Source of the DNA: Rubrivivax sp.
GTDB lineage: Bacteria > Pseudomonadota > Gammaproteobacteria > Burkholderiales > Burkholderiaceae_C
DNA: 64,000 bases
Direction: 5' to 3'
Assembly: GCA_016789955.1 (NCBI GenBank)
Contig: JAEUPB010000096.1
Coordinates: 1 to 64,000 of the forward strand
Part shown: in pieces, positions 23,610 through 51,161 of the stretch
Numbering within the stretch: the first letter of the stretch is position 1
Layout of the letters: each line of letters starts with the position of its first letter
Program-made: the position numbers and the translations under genes
The notes under the pieces: model-generated
The model's database searches: none
Seen by the model: only the letters and a program-made list of their open reading frames with translations
Told to the model about the DNA's origin: nothing

Positions 23610-23984
23610 TCAGCGCCCCGCCAGGAACTGCTCGACCAAGGTCGGGAAGGTGGCGGCCTCGATCGGCTTCGACAGATAGCCATCGCAGCCGGCCGCCCGC
23701 GCCCGAACCTCGTCGCCGGACATCGCATACGAGGTCACGGCCACCACGGGCACGCCGGCGAGATCGGGGCGGGCCTTCAGCCGCCGCGTCAGCTCGAAGC
23801 CGTCGACTCCGGGCAGTTGCAGATCCATCAGGATCAGGTCCGGCCGCACCTCGTCGATCGACGCGACGGCCGAGTCGGCGTCGGCCGCGGTGCGCACGCG
23901 ATAGCCGTCGATGGTCAGCAGGTGCTCCAGCAGCGCGAGGTTCAGCGGATGGTCGTCGACGACGAGGATGGTGGCGCCGGTCAT
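23610..23984 (-). CDS. Single-domain response regulator
   Basis: A 124-residue stand-alone receiver. VVDDHP supplies the acidic pair, LILMDLQLPGVDG the phospho-acceptor Asp, VVAVTSYA the switch Thr and YLSKPI the Lys. Its start overlaps the stop of the histidine kinase gene upstream (ATGA), so it is the natural acceptor of that kinase. With no output domain it may act by protein contact or as a phosphate sink. Last gene of the kai-containing run. Confidence 0.93.
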   Translation of the reverse strand: MTGATILVVDDHPLNLALLEHLLTIDGYRVRTAADADSAVASIDEVRPDLILMDLQLPGVDGFELTRRLKARPDLAGVPVVAVTSYAMSGDEVRARAAGCDGYLSKPIEAATFPTLVEQFLAGR

Positions 23985-25474
23985 GCGTGCACCTCGGCCG
24001 GGGCCGCCTGGCGGGGCAGGATGGCCGAGAACACGCTGCCGCGACCCGGCTCGCTGCGCACTGCCACCTCGCCACCCTGCGCCTCGACGAGCCGGCGGGT
24101 CAGCGCGAGCCCGAGCCCGGTGCCCTGGTGACGCTTGGAGGCACCGCCCTCGAGCTGCTGAAACTCGGTGAACAACTTCGGCAAGTCGTCGGCGGCGATG
24201 CCGATGCCGGTGTCGGCCACGTCCACGCGGAAGCGGTCGTCGCCCTCGGGGCCGACGCTGACGGTGACCGACCCCGCGTCCGGCGTGAACTTCAGCGCAT
24301 TGGAGAGGTAGTTGTAGAGCACCTGCTTGAAGCGGGACGGGTCGATGCAGACGTTGCGCACGGCAGTGTCGTAGCGTTTGGCGACGCGGATGCCCTTCTG
24401 GCGCGCGATCTCGCTCAGCACTTCGGTGACCTCCTCGACGAGCGCCACGAGATCCACCGGCACCGGCCGGAACTCGACCTTCCCGGCCTCGACCTTGGCC
24501 AGGTCGAGGATGTCGTTGATGAGCTCCAGCAGGTGCCGGCCGCTGGTGAGGATGTGGCTCGTGAAGCGCGAGAACTGCGGCGACTGCGGATCGACCTTGC
24601 CGGCCAGGATGATCTGCGAGAAGCCGATGATGGCGTTCAGCGGCGTGCGCAGCTCGTGGGACATGTTGGCCAGGAAGGCGCTCTTGGTGCGGCTGGCCGC
24701 GACGATGCGCTGGTTCTCGGCCTCGAGCGCTTCGGTGCGCAGGCGCAGCTGCTCGGCGTGGCGGCGCTCGGTGATGTCGCGCACCGTCGCGAGGTGGGTG
24801 GCCTCGTCGTTCCAGAACAGCGACACGACGCGGATCTCGCAGGTGCGCTCGCCATCCGGACGCGGCAGCATGATCTCCGCGGGCTCCCCGTCGCGCACCG
24901 AGAAGCCGAGCCGCTCGCCGAGCAGCTCGGAGCGGCTGCGGCCGAACAGCTCGATGGCCGCCTGGTTCACGTAGCGCACCACGCCGTCGAGGTTGACGAC
25001 CAGCACGGCGTCGGGCATGGCGTCGAGCAGCCGGCGCATCTGCGTGAGCCGCTCGCGTTTGCGCTCGATGATGTGCAGCACGCTGCGCCAGAAGAGCCGG
25101 TTGTTGGTCTCGTCCTTCAGGTAGATCTCGTCGGCACCGGCGGCAAAGGCCAGGTCGCGCAGGCGGTCGTCGACGGCGCCCGTGACGACGATGATCGAGG
25201 TCGCCCTCGACGACGCCCGGACCCGGTTCACGGTGTCGATGCCACTCGAGTCCGGAAGACCGAGGTCGAGGATCACGGCGTCCATCGTGCCTTGCGCCAG
25301 CACACCGAGCGCCTCGCGGACGCTGCCGGCGCGGTGGATCTCGAACGTCGGAGACCCTTCGCTCAACCGAAGCGTCACGGTCTCGACGTCGCCGGGGTTG
25401 TCGTCCACCACGAGGATGCGCTGCTGGCAGGCCGCCTCCTGGATGCCTTCCTCGAGGTTGTTGCGCATGTTCAT
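23981..25474 (-). CDS. REC-PAS-histidine kinase downstream of kaiC
   Basis: A 497-residue soluble kinase. The receiver (~17-135) has VVDDNPGD, AVILDLGLPDSSG and YLKDET. A PAS domain (~145-255) follows, then HisKA with phospho-acceptor His in ANMSHELRTPLNAIIGF (near 275) and an ATPase domain with DTGIGI and GTGLGLALTRRLVE. No membrane segment. It starts 19 bp after kaiC and overlaps a receiver gene, so it may carry Kai state to phosphotransfer output. The receiver belongs to the same lineage as those at 37276 and 40246. Confidence 0.92.
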   Translation of the reverse strand: MNMRNNLEEGIQEAACQQRILVVDDNPGDVETVTLRLSEGSPTFEIHRAGSVREALGVLAQGTMDAVILDLGLPDSSGIDTVNRVRASSRATSIIVVTGAVDDRLRDLAFAAGADEIYLKDETNNRLFWRSVLHIIERKRERLTQMRRLLDAMPDAVLVVNLDGVVRYVNQAAIELFGRSRSELLGERLGFSVRDGEPAEIMLPRPDGERTCEIRVVSLFWNDEATHLATVRDITERRHAEQLRLRTEALEAENQRIVAASRTKSAFLANMSHELRTPLNAIIGFSQIILAGKVDPQSPQFSRFTSHILTSGRHLLELINDILDLAKVEAGKVEFRPVPVDLVALVEEVTEVLSEIARQKGIRVAKRYDTAVRNVCIDPSRFKQVLYNYLSNALKFTPDAGSVTVSVGPEGDDRFRVDVADTGIGIAADDLPKLFTEFQQLEGGASKRHQGTGLGLALTRRLVEAQGGEVAVRSEPGRGSVFSAILPRQAAPAEVHA

Positions 25475-25493: not shown

Positions 25494-27023
25494 TCAGTGG
25501 CCCGCCGGGCCCTTGAACATCTCGCCGAGCCGCGCCCGCTCGTCCTCGAAGGTGTAGGTCGGCGTGCCGGTCAGGATGCCGTGCACGCCCCGGAACGGGG
25601 CCTGCACGTGCAGGCCCTTGTCGTCGATCACGTACTCGCGGATGCCCTTGTCGTGGAAGGTTCCGCGCATCTTCAGCACCGTCAGCCCGCGGCGCATCTC
25701 GCCGTGCAGCTCGACGTAGCGCAGCAGGATGATGGTGTCGGTGATCGTCGAGATGTGGGTCTCGGTGATCGACTCTCCGCCGGTCAGCATCGACGTCGTG
25801 TTGGTGAACAGGCCCGTGATCTCGAGGTGCTTGATCGTGCTGGTCAGCGCGATCACGAACTCGCGGAACGACTTGGGCGTCGACACGCGCTCGAAGGCCG
25901 ACATGCTGTCGATGGCCACGCGCTTGGGCTGGAAGTCGTGGATGTCGCGCTTCATCTGCAGCAGGTGGTCCTCCAGGCCCATCACTTCCGGGTAGCGGCA
26001 GATGATGCGCAGCAGCCCGTCGCGCTCGGCCTGCTCGAAGTCCACGCCCCACGACGCGGCGTTGCGGGTCAGCTGCTCGCGGCTCTCCTCGGCCCCGAAC
26101 AGCAGCACGCGCTCGCCGGCCTGGATGGCGGCCTTGACGTACTGCGACACCATCAGCGTCTTGCCGGTGCCGGTGGCGCCGCTGACGAGGATGATCGAGT
26201 CGCGGTACATGCCGCCGGCGCACATCTTGTCGAGTTCGGCCACGCCCGAGGAGACGCGGATCTGCGATGAGCGTTGCTTCAGCTCGATCGCCGACAGCGG
26301 GATGATCGTCACGCCGTCCTCGCTGTCGATGGTGAACGGGTACTCGCCCTTGTGGTGCGTGGCCCCGCGGAACTTCAGGATCTCCACCGTGCGGCGGCGC
26401 TTCTCGTTCTCGAGCCGGTTGCGCAGCACGATCACGTTGTCTGCGACGAACTCCTCGACGCCCCAGCGTCCGATGCCGCCTTCCTCGTCGGTGCGCTCCA
26501 TCGTCACCAGCGTGGTGACCCCGAGCAGGCGCAAGCCCGATGCGATGCGGTGCAGCTCGCGGCGCACGATGTTGGCGTCGGTCAGCTGCGGGAACAGCGC
26601 GCCGATGGCGTCGAGGATCACGCGCCGTGCGCCCACCGAGCGGATGCCGTTCTCGATGCGTGCCAGCAGCGCCGACAGGTCATACGACCCCGTGGTGATG
26701 ACCTCCTCGCCGGGTTCCGGGGTCGCGTCGACGACGGCGATCTTCTTGTCGGACAGCAGGCCTTCCAGGTCCCAGCCGAACGAGCGCACGTTCTGCATCA
26801 GGTCCGAGGGCGCTTCCTCGAAGGTGACGAACACGCCGTTCTCGCCGTAGTCGCGCACGCCGGCGAGCAGGAACTGCAGCGCCATCACGGTCTTGCCGCT
26901 GCCTGCGGTGCCCGACAACAGCGTGCTGCGGCCCTTGGGGATGCCGCCGTTGGCGATCTGGTCGAATCCGACGATGCCGGTCGGGAGCTTGCTCAACTCC
27001 GTCGGTGCGTGCTTCACGCTCAT
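25494..27023 (-). CDS. kaiC: KaiC circadian/timer ATPase-autokinase
   Basis: A 509-residue double-RecA protein (cyanobacterial KaiC is ~519). CI has Walker A GTAGSGKT at 38-45 and paired Glu at 69-70; CII has GATGTGKT at 282-289 and Glu at 312-313. Phosphosites are kept: S425 and T426 in THISTITDT align with S431/T432 of Synechococcus KaiC, and T420 with T426. The C-terminus lacks the long cyanobacterial tail. The start overlaps the kaiB stop (ATGA). It should form a hexamer that autophosphorylates and hydrolyses ATP slowly. Confidence 0.96.
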   Translation of the reverse strand: MSVKHAPTELSKLPTGIVGFDQIANGGIPKGRSTLLSGTAGSGKTVMALQFLLAGVRDYGENGVFVTFEEAPSDLMQNVRSFGWDLEGLLSDKKIAVVDATPEPGEEVITTGSYDLSALLARIENGIRSVGARRVILDAIGALFPQLTDANIVRRELHRIASGLRLLGVTTLVTMERTDEEGGIGRWGVEEFVADNVIVLRNRLENEKRRRTVEILKFRGATHHKGEYPFTIDSEDGVTIIPLSAIELKQRSSQIRVSSGVAELDKMCAGGMYRDSIILVSGATGTGKTLMVSQYVKAAIQAGERVLLFGAEESREQLTRNAASWGVDFEQAERDGLLRIICRYPEVMGLEDHLLQMKRDIHDFQPKRVAIDSMSAFERVSTPKSFREFVIALTSTIKHLEITGLFTNTTSMLTGGESITETHISTITDTIILLRYVELHGEMRRGLTVLKMRGTFHDKGIREYVIDDKGLHVQAPFRGVHGILTGTPTYTFEDERARLGEMFKGPAGH

Positions 27024-27313
27024 GATTGCAGTCCCTTCTCGATGAGCTCGACGTCCAGGCCGAGCAGGACCTTCTCGCGGTCCGACAGGTCGCCGATGAT
27101 CTTGCGCACGGGTTCGGGCAGGCGCTTCACGAGGGTCGGCGTGGCCAGGATCTTTTCCTTCTCGGCCATCGCCGGGTGCTCGAGCACGTCGATCACGTCG
27201 ACCTCGTAGGCCCCCTGCAGGTCGCGCTCGCACAGGGTGCGCAGGTTGTCGATCGCGCGTTGCGACTGCGATGTGCGGCCGGTGATGTACAGGCGCAGCT
27301 TGAACTTCGTCAT
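27020..27313 (-). CDS. kaiB: KaiB
   Basis: A 97-residue thioredoxin-like protein that binds KaiC CI after fold switching. Strongly conserved parts are KLRLYITGRT at the N-terminus and VIDVLEHPAMAEKEKILATPTLVK, then RKIIGDLSDREKVLLGLD. Length matches classical KaiB, without an extra domain. It overlaps kaiC by four bases and starts 12 bp after the REC/KaiA-like gene, so the three are almost surely co-transcribed. Confidence 0.96.
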   Translation of the reverse strand: MTKFKLRLYITGRTSQSQRAIDNLRTLCERDLQGAYEVDVIDVLEHPAMAEKEKILATPTLVKRLPEPVRKIIGDLSDREKVLLGLDVELIEKGLQS

Positions 27314-27325
27314 GGGGGGTTCCTC

Positions 27326-28147
27326 TTACTCGAAACGCCGCCGGTGACCAACCCGGTAGTAGTCGACCAGCAGACCCATCATCTCGAGTGCCAGCAGCCG
27401 GGCCTCGAAGACGATGGTGCGCGAGTGGGGATCGTCGAACAGGGACATCGCGCGCTCGATCGCGGCCAGATGGATGTCCAGCAGGTCGCGCGGGCCACCG
27501 CCGTGGTCGCCGACCACGGTGATCAGCTGCTCGGCGACGGCCCGCGGCGCGCGCACGTGGTCGCTTTCGCGCAGCAGGTAGGGCTCGAGCAGCCGGTAGT
27601 AGTCGCCGACGATGCGCTGGTAGGCCTCGGGGTTGGACACCGAGATCGCGCCCGACTTGGCCAGTGCCGCGGTCACCGAGGTGCCCTGCGTGCGCGACGA
27701 CATCGCGCGGTAGCCCGCCAGCGTCTCCTCCATCTCGCGCAGCTGCATCTCGCGCCGACGCGTGATCGAGTAGCCGATCGCCCGCTTCAGGTTGCGTGCC
27801 GTGACGTCCGACTTGGGCAGGTAGTCCTGCGCGCCGGCATCGATGCAGGCCAGCGCCAGGCGTTCGTCGTCGCTGCCGGTCAGCACGACGATCGGCAGCT
27901 GGCCGCGCAGCGCCCGCACGGCGCGCACGGTGTCCACGCCTTCGGCGTCGGGCAGCCGCAGGTCGAGCACGACGACGTCGACCTCCGTCGCCTCGAGCGT
28001 GCGCAGCGCCTCGTCCAACCGCGGCGCGTGCATGACCGTGTAGGTGTCCCGCTGGGATTCGTCCAGCAGTTCCCTCACCATTTGCGCGTCGCCGGGGTTG
28101 TCCTCCACCAGCAGCAGGATGCGGGTTCCGGTCAATGGGCTCGTCAT
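27326..28147 (-). CDS. Receiver fused to an RsbU_N/KaiA-C-like helical domain
   Basis: A 273-residue protein from ATG 28147 (GGAG seven bases upstream; overlaps the preceding stop). The receiver (~8-125) is intact: E15/D16, D62 in VVLDLRLPD, T90 and K112. After a linker, residues ~174-266 read YQRIVGDYYRLLEPYLL .. DLLDIHLAAIERAM .. FEARLLALEMMGLLVDYY. This matches by eye the pattern of the RsbU N-terminal domain, which shares a fold with KaiA-C (SCOP KaiA/RbsU superfamily). KaiA itself is a pseudo-receiver plus KaiA-C. Directly upstream of kaiB, it is a candidate KaiA-like regulator. Confidence 0.78.
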   Translation of the reverse strand: MTSPLTGTRILLLVEDNPGDAQMVRELLDESQRDTYTVMHAPRLDEALRTLEATEVDVVVLDLRLPDAEGVDTVRAVRALRGQLPIVVLTGSDDERLALACIDAGAQDYLPKSDVTARNLKRAIGYSITRRREMQLREMEETLAGYRAMSSRTQGTSVTAALAKSGAISVSNPEAYQRIVGDYYRLLEPYLLRESDHVRAPRAVAEQLITVVGDHGGGPRDLLDIHLAAIERAMSLFDDPHSRTIVFEARLLALEMMGLLVDYYRVGHRRRFE

Positions 28148-28551
28148 GACGGGGCTCCGAGGGCACACACGAGGTCGACGACGCGCTCGAACTCGGTGGA
28201 CTTGTCCAGGACGTGGTCGGCGCCGAGGTGGCGGCTGTGCCGGCGAACCTCGTCGGACTCGCCGTCCGTCAGCACCACGACCAGGCAGCCGGGGTTCAGC
28301 TTGCGAAGCAGGCCGAGCAGCTCGAACCCTTGCGGGTCATGCGCGGGCAGGTCGAAGACGACGCAGTGCGGGCGCCAGTCGGTGTAGCGGCGCAGCACGT
28401 CGGCGGCCCTGCCGCCGCAGGTCTGCGCGATCACACCGTCGAGCTCCGACAGCATGCGGCCCAGGCGCTGGCGCGTGGGCGCCGCCTCGTCGACGACGAG
28501 TGCGCGGATCGATGGGACCGGGCTGGAAGGCATGGACCGGACTGTGCTCAT
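28144..28551 (-). CDS. Single-domain response regulator heading the kai run
   Basis: A 135-residue receiver; an alternative ATG lies six codons in. LVVDEA, CVVFDLPAHDPQG (phospho-acceptor Asp), VVLTDG and VLDKST (Lys) keep all key positions, though the loop after the Asp is atypical. No output domain. Its stop overlaps the start of the REC/RsbU_N gene. Forty bases upstream is the inverted repeat at 28591-28609, so transcription of this gene and the kai genes may start here. Confidence 0.88.
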   Translation of the reverse strand: MSTVRSMPSSPVPSIRALVVDEAAPTRQRLGRMLSELDGVIAQTCGGRAADVLRRYTDWRPHCVVFDLPAHDPQGFELLGLLRKLNPGCLVVVLTDGESDEVRRHSRHLGADHVLDKSTEFERVVDLVCALGAPS

Positions 28552-28590: not shown

Positions 28591-28609
28591 TGTCGGCTAT
28601 TTGCCGACA
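28591..28609. promoter_or_regulatory. 19-bp inverted repeat, site a (upstream of the kai run)
   Basis: TGTCGGC-TATTT-GCCGACA is a perfect 7+5+7 dyad with an AT-rich spacer unlike the surrounding DNA. It overlaps the stop codon of the upstream receiver gene and ends 40 bp before the next start. Matching dyads are at 29088-29106 and 40172-40190. The size and symmetry suit a NarL/LuxR-type dimer. Confidence 0.65.
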
Positions 28610-29043
28610 GGCGGTGCCGGTGCCCCGTCCGGTGCTGCGCCCGGCGGCGCGTCGCCGGCGTTGCGGGCGGACAACAAGTCGACGACCCGGTGCAGTTCAC
28701 CCTTGAGCAGGAAGTGGTCCGCCCCTGCGGCCAGCGCATGTCGCCGGACCTCGGGCTCGCGGCTGCTCGTGACCACGATCACGAGGCAGCGTTCGCCGCC
28801 CGGGGCGGCGCGGATCGCCCGCGTGACCTCGATGCCCGTCATGCCCGGCATCTGCACGTCGAGCAGGGCGACGTCGGGCGCCGCATCGAGGAACAGCCGC
28901 AGCGCCTCGGTGCCGTCGGCCGCGGGGCCGAGCACTTGCGCGCCGGCCTCCTCGACCAGCTCGCGCAGCGCCTCGGCGACGATCGGCGAGTCGTCGGCGA
29001 CGAGGACCAGGCGACCTGGGGAGTCGTTCATCCCGGAAAGCAT
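28597..29043 (-). CDS. Single-domain response regulator with Pro/Ala tail
   Basis: A 148-residue protein; ATG 29031 is an alternative start. The receiver has VADDSP, ALLDVQMPGMTG with the phospho-acceptor Asp, VVTSS and LLKGE (Lys). The last ~25 residues are a low-complexity Pro/Ala tail. The gene is set off from its neighbours by the inverted repeats on both sides (site b upstream, site a over its stop), so it may be its own transcription unit. Confidence 0.9.
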   Translation of the reverse strand: MLSGMNDSPGRLVLVADDSPIVAEALRELVEEAGAQVLGPAADGTEALRLFLDAAPDVALLDVQMPGMTGIEVTRAIRAAPGGERCLVIVVTSSREPEVRRHALAAGADHFLLKGELHRVVDLLSARNAGDAPPGAAPDGAPAPPVGK

Positions 29044-29115: not shown

Positions 29116-29748
29116 CTAGTCCACGATGCCGTTGTGCAGCGCGTAGCGGGCCATCTCGACGCGGCCGGTGAGGCCGGTCTTCTTGCGGATGCGCTCGAGA
29201 TAGGTGGCCACCGTCTTGCTCGACAGGCCGAGGTCGTAGGCGATCTCCTTGATCGCCTGTCCGAGCGCGATGCGGCGGAAGATGTCGAGCTCGCGCTCCG
29301 ACAGTGCCAGGTGCGGATGGGTGGGCTGCTTCTGGTGCATCGAGCGCGCGAGCGCGGCCGCCGTGTCGGCGTGCAGGTAGTGGCCGCCGGCGGTGACACG
29401 CTCGATCGCCTGCTCGAGCTCGGTGTCGGCCTGGTGCTTGTGCACCAGCCCGTTGGCGCCGGCCCGCATGGTCTCGATGACGTACTCGATCTCGGTGGTC
29501 GCCGTCAGCACGAGGATCGGCATCGTCGGGTGCCGCTCGCGCACGGCTGTCAGCAGCGGCAGGATGCCGGGCCCGGGCATCATCACGTCGAGCAGCAGCA
29601 GGCTCCAAGGCTGCGTGTCCAGCTGGGCCAGCGCCGCGTCGCCGTCGATCGCCTCCCCGACCTGCGCATCGGGGTACAGCTCGCGCACGATCTCGCGCAA
29701 GCCGCGGCGCGTCACGGCGTGGTCGTCGGCGATCAGCACGTGCTTCAT
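29116..29748 (-). CDS. NarL/FixJ-type response regulator (LuxR HTH)
   Basis: A 210-residue transcription factor. The receiver has IADDHA, LLLLDVMMPG (phospho-acceptor Asp), LVLTATTE and LVHKHQ. The C-terminal HTH (~145-205) reads LSERELDIFRRIALGQ .. EIAYDLGLSSKTVATYLERI. It is the only recognisable DNA-binding output domain in the 23.6-41.8 kb signalling island. Its start overlaps the stop of a NarX-like kinase, its cognate partner. It is the best candidate to bind the three 19-bp dyads. Confidence 0.95.
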   Translation of the reverse strand: MKHVLIADDHAVTRRGLREIVRELYPDAQVGEAIDGDAALAQLDTQPWSLLLLDVMMPGPGILPLLTAVRERHPTMPILVLTATTEIEYVIETMRAGANGLVHKHQADTELEQAIERVTAGGHYLHADTAAALARSMHQKQPTHPHLALSERELDIFRRIALGQAIKEIAYDLGLSSKTVATYLERIRKKTGLTGRVEMARYALHNGIVD

Positions 29749-31250
29749 GCCGTGGTCCCATGCATCGGCACGATCACCACGGCGACCGTGCCGCCCGATT
29801 CGCCCGTGCGGATCGTGAAGCGGCCGCCGATGGCCACCGCGCGCTCGGTCATGCCGAGCAGACCCAGCGCGTCGCTGCGGGTGGTGGCCCCTACGGGCAG
29901 GCCGACACCGTCGTCGTGCACCTCCATCCGCCACTGGTCATCCACCTCGCGGAGCGCGATCCGCAACGAGCGGGCGTGCGAGTGGCGCACGACGTTGGAC
30001 ATCAGCTCCTGCAGGATGCGGAACATCGCGGTGGCCACGTCGGGTGGCGGCGAAGGCAGGCCTGCCCCGACCTCGACGAGGGTGGCGATGCCGCTGCGGG
30101 CCTCGAAGCGGCGCGCCTCGTCCCGAACGGCGGCCACCAGGCCGAGCGAATCCAGCGCGCTCGGCCGCAGCTCGACCGAGATGCGTTGCACGGTGGCGAT
30201 GGTGTTGTCGACCAGCGCGTCGGTCTCGGCGAGGCGGTCGACCAGGGCCCGCGGGCTGGCACTCTTCGCCTCGATCCGGCGCTGCACCCAGCGCAGGTCC
30301 ATCTTGATGCCCGTCAGCAGCTGGCCGAGCTCGTCGTGCACCTCACGCGCGATCAGCTTGCGCTCCTGCTCGCGCACCGCGCTCAGCCGTGCCGCCAGCG
30401 CCCGCATCTGCCGCTGGCGCTCCAGCAGCTGTTGATTGACCCGACGCAGCTCGTCGGATTGGCGTCGGACCTCGGTGACGTCGCGGCAGATCACCGCGAC
30501 CTGCGTGATCTCGCCGGCGGCGTTCGGCAAGGCGCTGGTGACGATGGACACGGTCACGGGCGAGCCGTCGCGCCGGAAGCGCACGAGCTCCTCGGGCACG
30601 CCGGTCCCGCGGCCGAGCCGGGTCTGCTCGAGGCGGTGTTGCTGGTGCTCGCTGTCGGGGCCGGGGGCGGCTCGGATGACCTCGCCGAACGGGCGCCCGA
30701 TCGCCTCGTCGGCGCCGTAGCCGAACATCGCGGCGGCGCCGTGGTTCCACGTCGAGACGCTGCCATCGAGCGCGATGCCGACGATCGCGTCGGCCGACGC
30801 GTCGACGATGGCCGCCAGGCGCGCCTGCAGGTCGTCCGCCCGTGCCCGCGCGGCGGCCTCGGCGGCACGTGCCACCGCATGGGCGATGGTGCGCGTCAGC
30901 GCGTGCGGGTGGAGCTCGTGCTTGGTCAGGTAGTCCTGCGCGCCCGCGGCGATGCAGTCCAGCGCGAGCGCTTCGTCGTCCAGGCCGGTCAGCACGACCA
31001 GCGGCATCGATGGGGCCGACGCCCGCAAGGCGCGCACGCATTCGATGCCAGCGGCGTCCGGCAGCCGCAGATCCAGCAGCGCCACGTCGAAGCCGCTGTC
31101 GATCGCCAGTTGTCGGGCCTCCTCGAGCCGCACGACGTGCACCACCTCGTGGCGCGGCGCATGCGTGACCGCCAGGTACTCGCCGACGAGTTCGGCGTCG
31201 CCAATGTCGTCCTCGACGAGCAGGACGCGGCGCAGGGTGGAGGTGTCCAT
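29745..31250 (-). CDS. REC-PAS-HisKA_3 histidine kinase, partner of the NarL-type regulator
   Basis: A 501-residue soluble kinase: receiver (~8-130, LVEDDIGD, ALLDLRLPD, YLTKHE), PAS (~145-265, with WNHGAAAMFGYGADEAIGRPFGE), a HisKA_3 dimerisation domain with phospho-acceptor His in REVHDELGQLLTGIKMDLR, and an ATPase domain with HDDGVGLP and LGLLGMTERA. This is the NarX/DegS class that pairs with LuxR-type regulators. It overlaps its regulator by four bases. Confidence 0.94.
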   Translation of the reverse strand: MDTSTLRRVLLVEDDIGDAELVGEYLAVTHAPRHEVVHVVRLEEARQLAIDSGFDVALLDLRLPDAAGIECVRALRASAPSMPLVVLTGLDDEALALDCIAAGAQDYLTKHELHPHALTRTIAHAVARAAEAAARARADDLQARLAAIVDASADAIVGIALDGSVSTWNHGAAAMFGYGADEAIGRPFGEVIRAAPGPDSEHQQHRLEQTRLGRGTGVPEELVRFRRDGSPVTVSIVTSALPNAAGEITQVAVICRDVTEVRRQSDELRRVNQQLLERQRQMRALAARLSAVREQERKLIAREVHDELGQLLTGIKMDLRWVQRRIEAKSASPRALVDRLAETDALVDNTIATVQRISVELRPSALDSLGLVAAVRDEARRFEARSGIATLVEVGAGLPSPPPDVATAMFRILQELMSNVVRHSHARSLRIALREVDDQWRMEVHDDGVGLPVGATTRSDALGLLGMTERAVAIGGRFTIRTGESGGTVAVVIVPMHGTTA

Positions 31251-31262
31251 TGGGGCCGGGCC

Positions 31263-31688
31263 TCAAGGGAGCCGCACGATCGTGAACCAGAAGCCCTCGA
31301 CGGACCGCACGACGGTCTGGAAGGCCTCGAAGCCCACCGGCTTGGTGACGTAGCAGTTGGCCCCGAGCTCGTAGCTGCGGACGATGTCCTGCTCGGCGTC
31401 CGACGAGGTCAGGATCACGATCGGCACCTTGCGCAGCCGCGGCTGCCTGCGGATCTCCTCGAGCACCTCGCGGCCGGAGATGCGCGGCAGGTTGAGGTCC
31501 AGCAGCACGAGGTCGGGCATCGGCTTGCCCGCGTAGGGCGGCCGTTGCAGCAGGTAGTCCAGCGCCTGCTCGCCGTCGACCACCACGTCGATCTCCAGGT
31601 GCAGGCGGCCGGCTTCGAGTGTCTCGCGCGTCAGGTCGGCGTCGCCGGGGTTGTCCTCCACGAGCAGGACGCGCACGGGTGTGCTCAT
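31263..31688 (-). CDS. Rcp1-like single-domain response regulator
   Basis: A 141-residue receiver of the class paired with cyanobacterial and bacterial phytochrome kinases: LLVEDNPGDADLTRE, the long loop LDYLLQRPPYAGKPMPDLVLLDLNLP (phospho-acceptor Asp), ILTSSD and YVTKPVGFEAF. It overlaps the stop of the frameshifted kinase gene upstream, whose HisKA domain is also of the type seen in phytochrome-like kinases. Confidence 0.93.
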   Translation of the reverse strand: MSTPVRVLLVEDNPGDADLTRETLEAGRLHLEIDVVVDGEQALDYLLQRPPYAGKPMPDLVLLDLNLPRISGREVLEEIRRQPRLRKVPIVILTSSDAEQDIVRSYELGANCYVTKPVGFEAFQTVVRSVEGFWFTIVRLP

Positions 31689-33297
31689 GGTTCGCCTCCG
31701 GTCTTGGGCAGGGTGAAGAAGAAGGTCGTTCCGTGCCCAGGCACGGAGTCGACGCCGATCGTGCCGCCGTGGCGCTCGACGATGCGCTTGGCGATGGCCA
31801 GCCCGATGCCGCTGCCGTCGTAGCGGCCGAGCTCGTGCAGCCGCTGGAACATCATGAAGATCCGGTCGGCGTAGCGCAGGTCCAGACCGATGCCGTTGTC
31901 GATGACCTCGAAGCGCCATCCCGAGGCCAGCGGCTCGGCCCGGACCTGCACGCGCGGCGGCGCCTCGCCGTGGAACTTGATGGCGTTGCCGATCAGGTTC
32001 CGGAACAGCTGCAGCAGCTGGCCCTCGTCGCCCTGAACCGCGGGCAGCTCACCGACTTCGACCTGGGCAGCCGTTTCCCGGATGAGGTGCTTCATGCCGT
32101 GCAGCACCCGTCGCACGACGGAGCCGCTGTCCACCGGGGCGAACGGCTTGCCCTGCGAGCCGACTCGGGAGTAGGCCAGCAGGTCGGCCACCAGGCGCTG
32201 CATGCGGCGGGCGCCGTCGGCGGCATAGTGGATGTACTTGTCGGCCCGCTCGTCGAGCCGGCCGCGGTAGCGCTCGGCCAGCAGTTCGGTGTAGTTGGCC
32301 ACCATGCGCAGGGGCTCCTGCAGGTCGTGCGAGGCGACGTAGGCGAACTGCTCCAGTTCGGCATTGCTGCGCTGGAGTTCCTCGACGTGCCGCGCGCGCT
32401 CCTGTTCGAGCTGCCGCTGCTGAGTGAGGTCGCGGAACACGACCGCCAGGCCGCGCACGGTGCCGTCGTCGGAGCGCGTCCCGAGTGGGTCTCCAGCGGC
32501 GTGCGGCGGCCGCTGCGCGAGATGGCCACGAGTTCGCGCCCGACGTCTTCGGTGATTCCCTCGGCGAGCATGACGTCGATCGGATTGCGCTCGGTCATCC
32601 CGGGCGGACGGTCTTCGCGCAGGAAGACATCCCACACGCTGCGGCCCAGCGCTTCGGCTTCTGTCCACTCGAAGACCCGCTGCGCGACCGCATTGAACCG
32701 CGTGATGCGGCCTCGGCTGTCGGTACCGACGAAGCCGCCGCCGATGCTGGCCAGCGCGATGCCCAGGCTCTGCTGCAGGTCGACGAGGCCGTCCTCCGCG
32801 GTGCGCCGCCGCTGCACTTCGCCCTGCAGGCGTTCGACGGCGGCCTGCAGCTCGGCCTGCGCCTGCTTGAGCGGGCTGACGTCGGTGACCTGCGCCATGA
32901 AGCCGACGACCTCGCCGTCGACGACATCGGGCAGGTAGGTGGCCAGGCTGTGCCGCTGCACTCCATCAGGGCCCGGCACGATGCGCTCGAAGCGCTGCGG
33001 CTCGCCGCGCAGCGCTGCACGCATGTACGGCTCGTTCAGCGCGAAGAGCCGCGGCCCGAGGAGCTCAGTGATCGAGCGGCCGATCAACAGGTCCGGATCG
33101 GCGCCGAACCACAGCCCGTAGGCACGGTTGGCGAAGCGGCACAGCAGGTCGCGATCCCAGTAGGCCATCATCGACGGCGCCTGGTCGACCAGACGCCGCA
33201 CGTGGTAGGCGATGTCCTCCGGTCGCTTGCTCGGCGGGCCGAGGTGCGGGGCGACGCGGTCGCCCTGGGGCTCGTCGGGCTGTAGGGGCTTCGTCAT
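31685..33297 (-). pseudogene. PAS-PAS-histidine kinase disrupted by a one-base frameshift
   Basis: The N-terminal frame (from ATG 33297) encodes a PAS domain, a coiled linker and the start of a second PAS ending ..RRTPLETHSG near 32480. The PAS end, HisKA (YVASHDLQEPLRM) and ATPase domain (DNGIGLDL, GSGIGLAIAKRIVE) continue in another frame. Adding one base at about 32480 (CGGGACG to CGGGCACG) joins them as ..SGTRSDDGTVRG.. into one ~537-residue protein with no other defect. It is either a sequencing/assembly error or a recent inactivation. The upstream kinase is a close paralogue. Confidence 0.85.
32161..32371. repeat. Direct repeat A (kinase paralogue block)
   Basis: This 211-bp block encoding the HisKA region of the frameshifted kinase is more than 90% identical, by eye, to 33821-34031 in the next kinase. 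The residues around YVASHDLQEPLRMVANYTEL are identical in both. Confidence 0.75.
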
Positions 33298-45729: not shown

Positions 45730-48700
45730 CAGTAGCCCGGCTGGTTCTTGATGATCTCGAAGATGGCCTGCGTGGCGGCGCGGTTCTTCTTCATGATGGG
45801 GTAGATGGCGTTCAAGACCTGGGCCTCTCGCGCCGCATCGCCCTTCCAGCCCGCCGGGGCCTTTTCTCGCAGGGCCTTGTCCAACGCCAATGCCAGCGAG
45901 AGAACCTCGTCGCCGAATTCGGTGGCGGTCTCGGCCGCCGTGTTGGGCTCCACCGCCGCGGCCAGCACCGAGGGCAGGTTGTTGTACAGAACCGTCGCTT
46001 CCTTGTTGCCGTGCAGCGCGGCGGGTACGTCGTTGTCGCCCTTGCCCGTGCCCAGCTTCTTCGCCAGCTCTTCCGCCTTCTTCAGGAATTCCTCGTAGGA
46101 CTCGGTGTCGTCGCGCTTCTGCTGGATCAGGTCCTCCAGCAGCTTCGACATCTCCTCGTAGAACATCGGGTCCGTCAGCTGGTCACGGATGATGGTCTTG
46201 CGGACGTTGTTGATGATCCCCTCGGCGATCGCGTTGCGGGACAGCGTGCCTTTCTCGTTCAGCTTCTTCGCGATGGCGTCGTGAATGCCCGTCTGGATGA
46301 TCAACTCGGTCAGCGACAGCTCGCTCAGGTCGCCCAGCAGGTTGGCCGGGTCGGCCAGCACGTAGCTGTTGATGAGGTGGCGCATGTCGGCCTCGAAGGG
46401 CTTGATGTCCAACTCCTCGCCCGAGTGGTTCTTGATGGCCGCGCGAACCTCGGCATGGAACTGGGTCTCCTGCTCGAACGCTGCCATCTGCGCGGCGGTG
46501 TAGCCGGCTTCTTCCATGTTCGGCGCCATTTCGGAGTAGGCGCGCACGTAGGCTGCCACCGCCTTGTAGTACGAGATGCGCAGAGGCTCGGTGTCGTTGA
46601 GCGCGTTGGGGTTGGCCGCAACACCGCAGAAGTAGTGGATGTGCTGCTCGATGCCCTGTGGCTGCTTGACCGGCGCGCACAGATAGATCAAGGCCTCGAC
46701 CGCCGCGTCCAGCCTGGCCTTGCCTTCCTCGCGCCAGTCCTTGACGATCACATTGCCATCGGGCCCACATGTCTCGGTGTCCAGTTCGTCCGACGTGTAG
46801 ACCGCAATGGCGTTCTGCACATTGCTGAACAACTCCTTGTAGTCGACGACGTGGCCGTAGTCCTTGTCCTCACCGTCCAACCGATTGGTGCGGCAGATCG
46901 CCTGGAACAGGTTGTGATCGCGCAGTTCGTTGTCGAGGTAGATGTAGGTGCAGCTCGGCGCGTCAAAGCCCGTCAGCAGCTTGCTCACCACGATCAGCAG
47001 CTTCAGGTTCGCCGGCTCCTCGATGAAGCGGCGCTTCATCTCGGCCTCGTATTGGCTGGTGGTCTGGTCCTTGGCCAGCACGTGCCTGGTGTACGTGTCG
47101 AACTTGTAGCGCTCGTCGCTGTCCTTGGGTTCTTGCGAGATCGCGTTGTGGTTCGGCTCGTACGAGGTGATGAGCCCGCAGTAGGGCCCCAGCGGTGAGT
47201 TCTGGAACAGGCGGTAGTAGTGGCAAGCGTCGTAGATCGACGCCGCCACCAGGATGGCGGTGCCCCTGTCGTTGTTCAGGCGCGGGCGAACGCCGAAGTC
47301 GTGGTTGATGTCGGCGATGATGCGCTGCTTGCGTTCGCCGGAACTCATCAGCTCTTCCATCGTGGCCCAGCGCTTGCGCAGCACGGACTTCTGGAAATTG
47401 TTCAACCCCTTGGCGGCCTTCTCGAACCACGCATCCACCGCTTTCGGCGAGGTCAGCCGCTGTGGCACATCGCGCGCCTCGTACTTCAGGTCCAGCACGA
47501 CCTTGTCGGCCACCGCCTGGTCGAACTTGTAGGTGTGAATGAAGGTGCCGAACACCTCGCGCGTGGTCTGCTTGTCGCGGCGCAAGAGCGGCGTGCCCGT
47601 GAAGCCGATGAAGATGGCGTTCGGCAGCCAGCGCTTCATCTGCTTGTTCATGTCGCCGCCCTGCGTGCGGTGGCATTCGTCGACGAACACGTAGAAGCGG
47701 CCGGCCACCTTGGGTGGGTCACCCTTCAGGTCCGAGGTGTCGATCTTGTGGATCAGCGCGCACATCAGGCGCGGGGCGGCTGCACCCAGCTTTTCCACCA
47801 ACTCCCGGCGTGACTGGATGCGCGGCGATGGGGAATCGGCGCCGATCACCCCGGCGTTCTTCATCACGCCTTCGATCTGCTTGTCCAGTTCGTCCCGGTC
47901 GGTCACCACCAGGATGCGTGCGTCGGCATCGTGCTCCAGCAGCCACTTGGCGATCAGCACCATGAGGATGCTCTTGCCGCTGCCCTGGGTGTGCCAGATC
48001 ACGCCGCCTTCGTGCTTCCTGATGCGCTCCTGCGCCGCCTTCACGCCCCCGTACTGGTGCAGGCGCGGCACCTTCTTCTGCCCGGCATCGAAGATCACGA
48101 AGTTGCGCATCAGGTCGAGCAGGCGCTCCGGGGCCAGCATCTCCCGCAGCGGACCATCCAGCAGCTCACCGACGGCCAGGCTGCCGCCCGTTGCGCCCGG
48201 CTGATGGTGCTTCCACTCGACGAAGAACTTCTCAGGCGTCCCTGTCGTGCCGTAACGCAGGCCCTGCGAATCGCTGCCGGCCAGCACCAACTGCACCGTG
48301 CTGAAGAAGCCCAGGTTGAAGATCTCTTCCTGGTTGGTGATGAGCTGCCGGATGCCGTTGGCGGTGTCGACCGAGCTGCGCTTCAGCTCGATGACCACCA
48401 CGGCGATACCGTTCACGTACAGCACGATGTCCGGCCTGCGCTCGTGCCCGCCCTTGAGCGTCACCTCCTCGGCCAGCGCGAAGTCATTCTCCGACGGCTG
48501 CTCCCAGTCGATCAGGCGTACCGTCTCGTGCGGCACGCCGGCGGCCACCTGCACCTGCACACCGTAGCGCAGCAGCTGGTAGGTGCGCAGGTTGGCCTGG
48601 TAGAGCGTGAGGCCCGTCGCATCGGCCGCCGCCATCAGCTTGTGCACGGCCTGCGAGATGTGGGCGTCGGTGTAGCCGCGCTGCTTCAGGTTGGCGCGCA

Positions 48701-48848
48701 GGTGCTCCACCTCGATGCCGCGGTTGCCGGCGCGCTGGCTCCAGTCACCCAGGTTCGTATAGCCCAGGCCACCGGCCGCAGCGGGCGCGGTGATGCAGCC
48801 CACCACGCGGTTCTGCGTGACGCGTTCGGGGCGCAGGGGCGGCGTCAT
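45729..48848 (-). CDS. hsdR: Type I restriction endonuclease subunit R
   Basis: A 1039-residue translocase-nuclease. The N-terminal PDDEXK nuclease shows RRPDIVLYVNGIAVVVIELKRSS near residue 145. SF2 helicase motifs follow: TQGSGKSILMVLIAKWL (Walker A), FVDECHRTQGG (DECH), GFTGTPLLRRDK and LLTGFDAPSC, with a QAICRTNRL motif VI. Full length. It cleaves unmodified DNA after ATP-driven translocation when bound to HsdM/HsdS. It overlaps the YhcG-type gene by four bases. Confidence 0.97.
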   Translation of the reverse strand: MTPPLRPERVTQNRVVGCITAPAAAGGLGYTNLGDWSQRAGNRGIEVEHLRANLKQRGYTDAHISQAVHKLMAAADATGLTLYQANLRTYQLLRYGVQVQVAAGVPHETVRLIDWEQPSENDFALAEEVTLKGGHERRPDIVLYVNGIAVVVIELKRSSVDTANGIRQLITNQEEIFNLGFFSTVQLVLAGSDSQGLRYGTTGTPEKFFVEWKHHQPGATGGSLAVGELLDGPLREMLAPERLLDLMRNFVIFDAGQKKVPRLHQYGGVKAAQERIRKHEGGVIWHTQGSGKSILMVLIAKWLLEHDADARILVVTDRDELDKQIEGVMKNAGVIGADSPSPRIQSRRELVEKLGAAAPRLMCALIHKIDTSDLKGDPPKVAGRFYVFVDECHRTQGGDMNKQMKRWLPNAIFIGFTGTPLLRRDKQTTREVFGTFIHTYKFDQAVADKVVLDLKYEARDVPQRLTSPKAVDAWFEKAAKGLNNFQKSVLRKRWATMEELMSSGERKQRIIADINHDFGVRPRLNNDRGTAILVAASIYDACHYYRLFQNSPLGPYCGLITSYEPNHNAISQEPKDSDERYKFDTYTRHVLAKDQTTSQYEAEMKRRFIEEPANLKLLIVVSKLLTGFDAPSCTYIYLDNELRDHNLFQAICRTNRLDGEDKDYGHVVDYKELFSNVQNAIAVYTSDELDTETCGPDGNVIVKDWREEGKARLDAAVEALIYLCAPVKQPQGIEQHIHYFCGVAANPNALNDTEPLRISYYKAVAAYVRAYSEMAPNMEEAGYTAAQMAAFEQETQFHAEVRAAIKNHSGEELDIKPFEADMRHLINSYVLADPANLLGDLSELSLTELIIQTGIHDAIAKKLNEKGTLSRNAIAEGIINNVRKTIIRDQLTDPMFYEEMSKLLEDLIQQKRDDTESYEEFLKKAEELAKKLGTGKGDNDVPAALHGNKEATVLYNNLPSVLAAAVEPNTAAETATEFGDEVLSLALALDKALREKAPAGWKGDAAREAQVLNAIYPIMKKNRAATQAIFEIIKNQPGY

Positions 48849-49975
48849 TCGGTGTCCTCGGGCGATGGCGGCAACAGGCGCTGCCGCGCGGCCGCGATGG
48901 CCTGCTGCAGCCGGGCCTGCAGCGCTTCACGCGGGGGCAGCACGGTCAGGTACTCGGCCACGTGGATGCCGCTCTTGTCCAGCTCCAGCAGCTCGATCTG
49001 TTCCTGCTTCTTGCCGGTGCACAGGATGATGCCCAGCGGCGGGTTCTCGCCCACCTCCTGCTCGTGCCTGGCCAGCCAGCGCAGGTACAGCTCCATCTGG
49101 CCCTTGTGCTCGGGGCGGAAGTCGCCGATCTTCAGTTCCACCGCCACCAGGCGCTTGAGCTTGCGGTTGTAGAACAGCAGGTCGATGTAGAAATCATCGT
49201 CGTCGATCTGCACCCGCTTCTGCCGCGCCACGAAGCTGAAGCCCGAGCCCAGCTCCAGCAGGAACTGTTCCAGCTCGCGCAGGATGGCGTCTTCGAGGTC
49301 GCGTTCCAGGTAGCGGTCGTTCAGGCCCAGGAAGTCGAGCACATAGGGGTCTTTCAGCAGCAGCGCCGGGCTGGGCCGTTCGTCGTGCCGCAGCGCCTGC
49401 AGCGCGTGCTCGACCGTGGCCTGGGGCTGGCGGCTGATGGCGCTGCGCTCGTACAGCAGGCTCTGCATGCGTTCCTGCAGCTGGCGCACGCTCCAGCCTT
49501 CCAGGCGGCACAGCTGGATGTAGAAGTCGCGCTTGAGCGCGTCGTCCACGTACATCAGCGTCTTGATGTGCGTCCAGCTCAATGCTCTCCGCAGTGCGGA
49601 GAGCGTTGCTTCATCGGGGAAAGTCTCCGCGGCGCGGAGACAGTGCCAGAGCTGCTTTTCGCTCCAGCCTCGCCCGTAGGCCGCCGTGAGCTGCCGCGCC
49701 AGGCCGGCCACCACGGTGGCGCCGTAGCCGGCGCGCTGCGCGCCCAGCACGTCCTGCCGGATGCGCGTGCCCACCTGCCAGTAGAGCAGCGTCAGCTCGG
49801 CATTCACCGCAGCCGCCACGCGCTGGCGCGCGCTGTCGATCAGCCGCTGGATGTCGCCGGCCAGCGAAGCATCGGCCACCCCGGCCGCGGCCGCTGCCGG
49901 CGCGGTGGCGTGCACCGGCGCCTTCGGCGGCCGCGCAGCGCGCGGGCGGCGTGGCGGTGGCGGCGTGCGGGTCAT
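48845..49975 (-). CDS. YhcG-type PDDEXK nuclease (DUF1016)
   Basis: A 376-residue protein. After a Pro/Ala/Arg-rich leader, the DUF1016 N-terminal helical domain appears (LTLLYWQVGTRIRQDVL, YGRGWSEKQLWHCLRAAE, SWTHIKTLMYVDD). A PDDEXK-type nuclease core follows: DDDFYIDLLFYNRKLKRLVAVELKIG near 265. YhcG-like nucleases have been linked to DNA recombination intermediates and are often found inside type I restriction loci. It lies between hsdS and hsdR and is coupled to hsdR. Confidence 0.92.
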   Translation of the reverse strand: MTRTPPPPRRPRAARPPKAPVHATAPAAAAAGVADASLAGDIQRLIDSARQRVAAAVNAELTLLYWQVGTRIRQDVLGAQRAGYGATVVAGLARQLTAAYGRGWSEKQLWHCLRAAETFPDEATLSALRRALSWTHIKTLMYVDDALKRDFYIQLCRLEGWSVRQLQERMQSLLYERSAISRQPQATVEHALQALRHDERPSPALLLKDPYVLDFLGLNDRYLERDLEDAILRELEQFLLELGSGFSFVARQKRVQIDDDDFYIDLLFYNRKLKRLVAVELKIGDFRPEHKGQMELYLRWLARHEQEVGENPPLGIILCTGKKQEQIELLELDKSGIHVAEYLTVLPPREALQARLQQAIAAARQRLLPPSPEDTE

Positions 49976-49985
49976 GGCGCCGGGC

Positions 49986-51161
49986 TCATGCGAGGCGTGT
50001 CCTTCCGGTCAGCAGCTCTTGCATCATCCCTTGCTTGAGCGCGCGGGTCTTGTTGCGGCGTGCTTCGAGGGCAGCTAGTTCAGAGTCCATGTCGGTAAGG
50101 ACCCCGGCGATTGCGGCCTGCTCTTTCGGCTCTGGCGCGGGCACTTCGACGCGTTCGATCGTCCGCGCATTCAAGCTCGGAACGCCTGACGCTTCGTTGT
50201 ACTGCATCCAGTCGATCAGACAGAAACGATAGTAGAGATACTTTGCGTTGTGATCGTCCTTCATCGCGGAATAGAACAGCGTGTCCACCGTCCAGAAGGG
50301 TTTATCCATGTAACGAGGCTGATTAATCGTTCCCTTTCGACCGATCAGCACCGACGGCTTGTCGTACAGCGCGCGAGAAGCTGTACCGATTTGGCCGCCA
50401 GTCGCGAGGATCGGATAGAGACCATCGACAGTCTCCACTTCGCGCTGGTTTCTGCCGTGGCAGACGGTGAGCATGTCGCCCATTCGTCTCACCTTCCACT
50501 CGCCCTGAAAGCCCGGAAGCCGGGTCTGGCCGGTGAGGAGTTGCTGCATGGCGGCCTGCTTGAGGTCGCGCTTCTTGGCGATGAGGCGGTCCAGCCCGAC
50601 TAGCAGCGCATCGACGTCTCCTATCGCTTCCCCAATGGCGCGCTGCTCTGCAACTGTTGGAACAGGAGCCAACACTCGGCCCAAACTCGCCTGTCCGATG
50701 TTGGCGCGCACGGCCCCTTGGCCCAACGGAATGATCTGCGCTCGAAGCGCGCGCGCTCGAAGCGCGTAGCCGCAGTAGTTTGGGTCGATTTCATCGGACG
50801 TCGGACGACCACGAATGACGAAGCCCCCGAACACGACTTCTTCCGAGTCGACGTAGGTAGCAGCCAAGGCCAGTTCTGAGTCAGTCTCGGATGTTCGATT
50901 GAAGAGCACATCGCCTCGCCTGACCGCATAGGTGGCGCGAATCGATGCCGGCAACGCGACTCGTCCTGCAACGTCGTCACATTTCAGGTGCGAGTGTGTG
51001 ATCGTTTCAAGTACGTTGACGAAGCGGACGCCAGTCCCGTAGGCGTGTCTTTCGGCGTTCACCCCGTTCTTGAAGGCGAAGAGCTCACCAAGAGGTTTCA
51101 CCGCCCAATCGGAGGGTAGTACGCCAATATCCGTACTCCGATATCCGGGGCTCAATTCCAT
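49986..51161 (-). CDS. hsdS: Type I restriction-modification specificity subunit S
   Basis: A 391-residue HsdS with two target recognition domains (about 15-150 and 215-345), each followed by a conserved coiled spacer: EQRAIGEAIGDVDALLVGLD with QQLLTGQTRLPGF, and EQAAIAGVLTDMDSELAALE with QELLTGRTRLA. The repeat of the LLTG-TRL motif marks the two halves. Each recognition domain reads half of a bipartite site; the sequence cannot be predicted here. Base composition is visibly less GC-rich than its neighbours. It overlaps hsdM by 10 bases. Confidence 0.94.
   Translation of the reverse strand: MELSPGYRSTDIGVLPSDWAVKPLGELFAFKNGVNAERHAYGTGVRFVNVLETITHSHLKCDDVAGRVALPASIRATYAVRRGDVLFNRTSETDSELALAATYVDSEEVVFGGFVIRGRPTSDEIDPNYCGYALRARALRAQIIPLGQGAVRANIGQASLGRVLAPVPTVAEQRAIGEAIGDVDALLVGLDRLIAKKRDLKQAAMQQLLTGQTRLPGFQGEWKVRRMGDMLTVCHGRNQREVETVDGLYPILATGGQIGTASRALYDKPSVLIGRKGTINQPRYMDKPFWTVDTLFYSAMKDDHNAKYLYYRFCLIDWMQYNEASGVPSLNARTIERVEVPAPEPKEQAAIAGVLTDMDSELAALEARRNKTRALKQGMMQELLTGRTRLA

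Follow-up and report, generated by a model that had tools for sequence, protein, structure and literature searches.

The window, i.e. the whole stretch of 64,000 nucleotides of Rubrivivax sp. DNA analysed here, contains a run of kai and two-component genes located on the minus strand. One of them (27326..28147), identified by ORF and domain searches and starting with ATG, encodes a protein of 273 aa that we assign to the KaiA3 type. It is composed of a receiver domain (residues 12-113; 27809..28114; Pfam and alignment) and of a helical domain resembling KaiA-C and RsbU_N (about residues 172-270; 27338..27634; residue numbers converted from alignments), with conserved GPRD, EARL and YYR motifs. 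The coordinates given for this ORF in an earlier note, which had placed it 12 bp before kaiB, proved exact. Next come kaiB (27020..27313; 97 aa; Pfam, NCBIfam) and kaiC (25494..27023), whose double-domain product of 509 aa carries a Ser-Thr phosphosite segment of the KaiC1/KaiC3 type (ITETHISTITDT) and is devoid of the coiled-coil extension of KaiC2. The 12-bp spacer from the stop of the kaiA3-type gene to the start of kaiB at 27313 (27314-27325; GAGGAACCCCCC on the coding strand) contains a ribosome-binding-like GAGGA ahead of kaiB, and kaiB and kaiC overlap by 4 bp. KaiB passed the NCBIfam model PRK09301 (113.3 bits, cut-off 110) and stayed below TIGR02654 (110.2, cut-off 145.3); KaiC exceeded both of its NCBIfam cut-offs (PRK09302, 733 vs 408; TIGR02655, 649.8 vs 546.25).

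Two-component genes flank this module on both sides. Located 19 bp past kaiC, a gene encoding a REC-PAS-HisKA-HATPase histidine kinase (23981..25474), a candidate input or output kinase, shares a 4-bp overlap with a single-domain receiver gene (23610..23984). On the other side, a single-domain receiver gene (28144..28551) overlaps the start of the kaiA3-type gene by 4 bp and is preceded by a further single-domain receiver (28597..29043), a receiver-GerE response regulator of the NarL type (29116..29748), a REC-PAS-HisKA_3 kinase (29745..31250) and a receiver gene (31263..31700), the product of which is presumably Rcp1-like. In 16 of the 37 related loci that could be tested, the kaiA3-type gene is immediately preceded by a match to this last receiver. 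Judging from the spacing, the run formed by the receiver, the kaiA3-type gene, kaiBC and the kinase looks like one translationally coupled cluster; scanning it for promoters and terminators was uninformative. Two other features of the minus strand deserve mention. At 31688-33234, a PAS-PAS-histidine kinase gene seems to be split by a frame change (PAS part in the frame of 32095-33234, HisKA-HATPase part in that of 31688-32668), which reflects either a genuine lesion or an assembly error. The genes at 45732-53596 make up a type I restriction-modification set, encoding HsdM as well as specificity and HsdR-type proteins; a gene for a DUF1016/YhcG nuclease is inserted between S and R.

The full receiver announced by the earlier note was recovered by Pfam (Response_reg, residues 12-113, E 2.9e-21) and retains E15, D16, D62, T90 and K112, i.e. 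the complete active-site set; the helical motifs that the note had picked out (Y..LL..YLL, DLLDIHLAAI and ALEMM..LVDYY) are likewise present in the translation. As a single sequence, residues 114-273 matched no Pfam family, and the C-terminal domain found no match in PDB or NCBIfam. This domain was queried without the receiver, since common receivers could otherwise carry the result. Its relatives were gathered in the A4 alignment (35 of 74 domain rows, the window first, near-copies and second copies being dropped), in which 34 of the 35 rows are non-cyanobacterial and L058 is the only cyanobacterial one. Canonical KaiA domains formed the A5 alignment (18 of 21 KaiA matches, three partial or short ones being dropped) and cyanobacterial members the A6 alignment (13 of 23 loci, without near-copies and the four weakest); the A7 alignment comprised 10 rows after removal of the fragment L059:8179-8421.

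When a profile of 55 C-terminal domains was compared with 177635 PDB sequences, KaiA chains occupied ranks 1 to 8, the best match having a modest E of 0.0029 over profile positions 26-124 of 130. Seven of these eight chains are named KaiA, and the fourth, 1r5q, titled 'circadian oscillation regulator', we take to be KaiA as well. RsbU chains appeared at ranks 10, 12, 14 and 15 (positions 33-87), with unrelated chains in between. A smaller profile, built from 18 rows of this family, retrieved no KaiA from PDB, and a profile built from the cyanobacterial members alone placed KaiA first (E 0.034). Using hhalign, the family aligned with the 18 canonical KaiA-C domains at P 2.9e-4 (score 28.8), and an enlarged family of 58 at P 8.7e-5 (score 31.5); 60 column shuffles of each peaked at 20.0 and 19.4, and reversed profiles reached 16.9 and 18.2, respectively. 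In Pfam, KaiA (10 members, best E 0.0021) and RsbU_N (8 members, best E 0.0068) were the commonest families among the 13 cyanobacterial members; the 35 members of A4 yielded RsbU_N in six cases (best E 0.0048), KaiA in three and DUF5304 in three; none of the Pfam matches of family members for which a cut-off was printed reached it. Taken at the level of sequence profiles, a relationship of the C-terminal domain to KaiA-C and RsbU_N is thus supported, and it is at this level that the earlier guess of a KaiA-C/RsbU_N fold for the domain of about 100 residues was right.

Proteins of this architecture have been published as KaiA3, i.e. a NarL-type receiver with its aspartate and a KaiA-like C-terminus, encoded upstream of kaiB3 and usually kaiC3 (PMC11372060). 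The architecture is therefore not new, and the novelty implied by the earlier note is out of date, the published members including non-cyanobacterial ones (five genera outside cyanobacteria according to the available part of that report, with Bradyrhizobium and Chloroflexus named). KaiA3 stimulates KaiC3 autophosphorylation in vitro and, for the Synechocystis protein, oligomerisation, binding and stimulation of KaiC3 and a damped oscillation with KaiB3 have been demonstrated (PMC11372060). Similarly, Rru_A3293 of Rhodospirillum rubrum is described as a kaiA3 ortholog preceding its kaiB and kaiC (PMC10931921). The A4 profile recovered 23 of 244 cyanobacterial genomes (best E 5.7e-45) and aligned with the cyanobacterial domains of A6 at P 2.6e-47, one protein being present in both sets; by sequence comparison the two plainly appear to be one family, and on these grounds we filed the gene as KaiA3-type. 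The domain of Bradyrhizobium is 50% identical to that of the window. Other identities were considered and discarded: canonical KaiA (PF07688), as neither the protein nor its own genome gave a Pfam KaiA match and D62 is present; RsbU, as the protein has no PP2C phosphatase domain; and a NarL-type response regulator, as no GerE/LuxR HTH is found in the protein, GerE residing instead in the neighbour at 29116-29748. We consider it very likely that the gene product is a KaiA3-type activator of KaiC, as predicted from its sequence; this confidence attaches to the activator, leaving aside the phosphorylation switch.

Using the C-terminal domain as query, matches were obtained in three of 274 genomes of the class of the window, its own included, and in two of 399 genomes of its family, i.e. 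the window and one false match; the five same-genus genomes of the family draw gave no match. In the phylum, a three-row profile matched 22 of 398 genomes, again including its own. The C-terminal domain alone, as query or profile, identified 28 matching loci in 23 other genomes, and kaiB was present in 27 of them (searched in fetched loci of 2.6-3.4 kb, the 28th, L007, ending at a contig end), an association far beyond chance. One further match (L005, E 1.2e-5) was kept out of the 28 as spurious, since it runs antisense to a long ORF resembling, on visual inspection, an enoyl-CoA hydratase; an E of about 1e-5 per genome is thus no proof by itself. In plasmids, tblastn gave 63 records, all with a query coverage below 80%; for the records listed (30), the alignment ends at residue 127-128 and hence concerns the receiver only.

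At least 42 loci of the family (one genome per species) were confirmed by tblastn from 118 candidate stretches, this count being a lower bound because the stretches were found with two short patterns; the sets of 28 and 42 loci share genomes and are not additive. Loci from the window's phylum have domain sequences identical to those of Magnetococcales loci in the set of 42, in line with a proteobacterial origin of the window. The 42 loci bear the labels of about a dozen phyla and include Bradyrhizobium sp. BTAi1 and STM 3809, an uncultured Pleurocapsa and an uncultured Chloroflexus. Their labels comprise Acidobacteria, Deltaproteobacteria, Desulfobacterales, SAR324, Nitrospinota, Alpha- and Gammaproteobacteria, Magnetococcales, an actinomycete, Chloroflexi, Armatimonadota-type lineages, Spirochaetales, Verrucomicrobia and Cyanobacteria; single phylum labels may be wrong, since many of these genomes are metagenome bins. 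Patchy presence in the genus, together with near-identity across labelled phyla, suggests either transfer or binning error. Within 600 bp downstream, kaiB was found in 35 of the 42 loci, kaiC in 36, and both in the order A-B-C in 35. L046 carries the two genes on the opposite strand, in L038 a kaiC is present and no kaiB is visible, and neither gene was found in the stretches fetched for L039, L042, L050, L052 and L071. In L050 and L052 the gene combines a receiver with the KaiA-like domain and is followed by about 6 kb of downstream sequence, yet both strands of the fetched locus were devoid of a detectable kaiB or kaiC. Two A-B-C modules occur in succession in L067 (5335-10281) and L070 (775-6634), the second set being divergent; in L067 the first of the two KaiC ORFs spans no more than 352 codons, and the second KaiA-like proteins of such double modules form a subfamily of their own, matched by Pfam KaiA in 7 of 10 members. 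L024, L026, L027 and L032 display the order kaiB, KaiA-like gene, second kaiB.

The receiver precedes the KaiA-like domain in 32 of the 42 loci. Among 35 aligned receivers, the window included (second copies of L067 and L070 being counted apart), the active-site set is complete in 30; it is incomplete in both Bradyrhizobium proteins (L036 and L045), L049, L064 and L041, the start of which was trimmed in the analysis. The Bradyrhizobium receivers carry S instead of D16, N instead of T90 and R or G instead of K112, in loci that keep the A-B-C order, so that phosphorylation is not essential in every relative. Ten loci have no fused receiver. Eight of these encode a PAS domain instead, among which two also have HAMP and a 4HB_MCP-type sensor and one has MEDS; the uncultured Chloroflexus encodes one of these PAS-type proteins. 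In L073 (5440-6380, Defluviicoccus) the receiver forms a separate ORF just upstream of the KaiA-like ORF, and in L071 the KaiA-like gene begins at the contig edge. The HAMP-PAS proteins of two Nitrospinota bins (L042 3-1724 and L046 4660-6369), in which a 4HB_MCP-type sensor (weak in L042) is combined with a KaiA-like end, are possibly membrane-tethered forms of KaiA, and in a Spirochaetales bin (L054 1-1779) a MEDS-PAS-PAS-KaiA-like protein is encoded directly before kaiB and kaiC. Receiver, PAS, HAMP-PAS and MEDS fusions indicate that the KaiA-like half has been joined to different input modules, and those with PAS or HAMP-PAS sensors suggest that the input half is exchangeable. Variable N-termini have been reported for cyanobacterial KaiA (PMC8113500); a limited literature search, by title or start of abstract, found no paper on PAS-KaiA fusions.

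The C-terminal tail of the partner KaiC contains the motif RLGEMF (residues 498-503; 25515..25532). A pattern written after viewing these tails, [LIVM]xx[ML]F, was present within the last 40 residues of all 41 KaiCs encoded beside a kaiA3-type gene, i.e. the best-scoring KaiC of each locus with a complete 3' end (the window, 35 of the 42 loci and five cyanobacterial loci). It was found in none of 10 canonical KaiC1 and in none of 11 KaiCs from genomes of the window's class that do not have the gene (0/14 when incomplete or shorter sequences are counted); the absence of the gene from those 13 genomes was checked genome-wide with a 55-row profile, which found the positive control. The tail also follows the gene where the two are unlinked: six of six cyanobacterial genomes having the gene and no adjacent kaiC encode exactly one tailed KaiC, their eight other KaiCs (E 1e-60 or better) being without the tail, and six cyanobacterial genomes in which the profile found no such gene have no tailed KaiC (0/7). 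This test is only partly independent, as these KaiC3s are close kin of the linked ones. On a tree built without the tail columns, tail and gene could be compared in three independent contrasts, all of which agree (sign test, p 0.25). We propose that the tail (ERARLGEMF in the window) is a docking peptide for KaiA3, a role predicted from sequence. In KaiC3, the A-loop is reported to be less conserved, with some KaiA-contact residues kept or conservatively replaced (PMC5520375), and no description of the tail motif was found in the parts of the KaiA3 and KaiC3 literature that were available. What is added here is the testable docking-tail hypothesis and the broad distribution, the KaiA3 family itself being already known.

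Phylogenetic analyses placed the KaiC of the window in a clade with those of Bradyrhizobium, Jiella, Tritonibacter and Mangrovihabitans (a group of ten, support 100/96; 84/78 in the smaller rooted tree). Its nearest relative, 90% identical, is found in L033 (labelled Acidobacteria), followed by L034 (labelled Deltaproteobacteria) and then by Bradyrhizobium and Jiella. In the tree rooted with KaiC2, which was built from a selection of 41 rows that did not include L067, L144, L145, L157, L158 and others, this clade lies beside and outside the group containing cyanobacterial KaiC3, and canonical KaiC1 falls among the KaiA3-associated KaiCs (87/72). Only 10% of 200 bootstrap trees had a branch that set the KaiA3-associated rows apart from all others, and the alternative to KaiC1 nesting was not rejected by the AU test (p 0.225), so that the nesting is to be taken as a possibility only. 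In a larger quick tree, KaiCs without a KaiA-like gene (L144, L145 and L158) branched within the KaiA3-associated radiation, and L067 and L157, which are KaiCs of second modules, grouped with KaiC1, in both cases on long branches.

A kinase domain like that of 23981-25474 was detected within 2.6 kb past kaiC in 18 of 33 testable loci, a count obtained with the window kinase as query, with which other kinase types could be missed. The occurrence of a kinase after kaiC is not a new observation, being a published theme, described in the betaproteobacterium Ramlibacter tataouinensis (PMC3164672), and it holds for only those 18 of 33 loci. The kinases encoded at 23981-25474 and 29745-31250 are candidates for acting on the receiver.

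By analogy with the KaiA3 paper and with KaiA, the KaiA-like C-terminal domain would most likely dimerise, the dimer would most likely grip the tail of the partner KaiC, this grip would most likely pull out the A-loop, and CII autophosphorylation at the Ser/Thr pair would most likely be stimulated; KaiB would bind phosphorylated KaiC and reverse the activation, an antagonism modelled on the same two systems. More speculatively, a histidine kinase, perhaps from the same cluster, would probably phosphorylate the receiver, and this phosphorylation would probably tune the strength of KaiC activation. The operon would then be a KaiABC timer with two-component input, a view that is itself speculative, as is any statement on whether the Kai system oscillates or is an hourglass.

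It is possible, if rather unlikely, that the protein is a KaiA3 member with a merely structural or ligand-sensing receiver, comparable to the pseudo-receiver of canonical KaiA, and that it activates KaiC constitutively, the input being ATP/ADP or quinones. The degenerate Bradyrhizobium receivers, found in loci with an intact A-B-C order, speak for such a role, as do the lack of the aspartate in KaiA3 of Pleurocapsa and Microcystis (the Pleurocapsa locus examined here, L058, keeps it) and the fact that, in the sections of their paper that were accessible, the authors state that no cognate kinase of KaiA3 has been identified so far (PMC11372060). Against it, the 30 receivers mentioned above retain the acidic pair together with D62, T/S90 and K112, and the kaiA3-type gene of the window has several receiver and kinase genes as overlapping or adjoining neighbours.

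The fact that RsbU_N is the Pfam family most often matched in A4 (6/35) would fit an adaptor for another partner, such as an RsbT-type switch kinase, acting in a partner-switching pathway and merely co-expressed with kaiBC. We regard this as very unlikely, considering that KaiA ranks above RsbU_N in the PDB profile search, that the tail motif of KaiC accompanies the gene also in genomes where the two are unlinked and that a PP2C domain is missing from the protein. An ordinary NarL-type or single-output response regulator, having a helical C-terminus by chance and no link to Kai, is less credible still: the dense cluster of receivers and kinases around the gene and the lack of a database match for the single C-terminal domain speak for it, but no GerE/HTH is present and the receiver-less query recovers mostly kaiB-linked genes (27/28 and 35/42 loci). 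Conservation of the A-B-C order, together with the family profile, already largely refutes it. The reading that we retain, as very likely, is that of a KaiC activator of the KaiA3 type.

The operon, which comprises the whole KaiA3-KaiB-KaiC set and encodes a full receiver, thereby comes from a proteobacterium in which no reaction-centre gene was detected: a search of its genome (79.6% complete) found no Photo_RC gene, so that a light-driven metabolism is unsupported. The receiver half could let the cell adjust its KaiC timer. A broader reading, which on balance we find doubtful, is that receiver-type KaiA (by domain swap also PAS- and HAMP-PAS-type) is the widespread bacterial form, with its own docking tail [LIVM]xx[ML]F, and that canonical KaiA/KaiC1 is a derived branch in which the phosphorylatable input disappeared and the tail was exchanged. 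If receiver-type KaiA were ancestral, KaiA would have begun as a two-component output coupling histidine kinases to KaiC. The relative age of the KaiA3 system and the standard clock is left open by the KaiA3 authors in the available text (PMC11372060).

Several known systems resemble this locus in part. Hourglass timers of the KaiBC type without KaiA and kaiC-histidine kinase pairs, e.g. in Ramlibacter tataouinensis, likewise have kaiC beside two-component genes (PMC3164672); the genome of R. tataouinensis is devoid of kaiA and kaiB according to its authors (PMC3164672), whereas the window has both a KaiA3-type gene and kaiB. The N-terminal domain of RsbU (PF08673; PDB 1w53, 2j70) is the next recurring family after KaiA in our profile searches. 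RsbU carries a PP2C phosphatase, and differs in this respect from the window protein, which has no such domain. The closest counterpart is KaiA3 (Sll0485) of Synechocystis sp. PCC 6803, part of its KaiA3-KaiB3-KaiC3 system, which likewise combines a receiver with a phosphorylatable Asp and a KaiA/RsbU_N-type C-terminus, is encoded directly before kaiB and usually kaiC, and has a partner KaiC with Ser-Thr phosphosites (PMC11372060). Unlike it, the window gene lies in a two-component gene cluster, in a genome without a detected reaction centre, and its KaiC belongs to a separate clade. Canonical cyanobacterial KaiA (PF07688) shares the two-domain layout and, at the profile level, the C-terminal fold, but its pseudo-receiver is without the Asp (PMC11372060) where the window protein has a full receiver. 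Their partners differ in the same region: canonical KaiC1 proteins end in SELSRIVRGV-like tails and do not have the RLxxMF of the window's KaiC.
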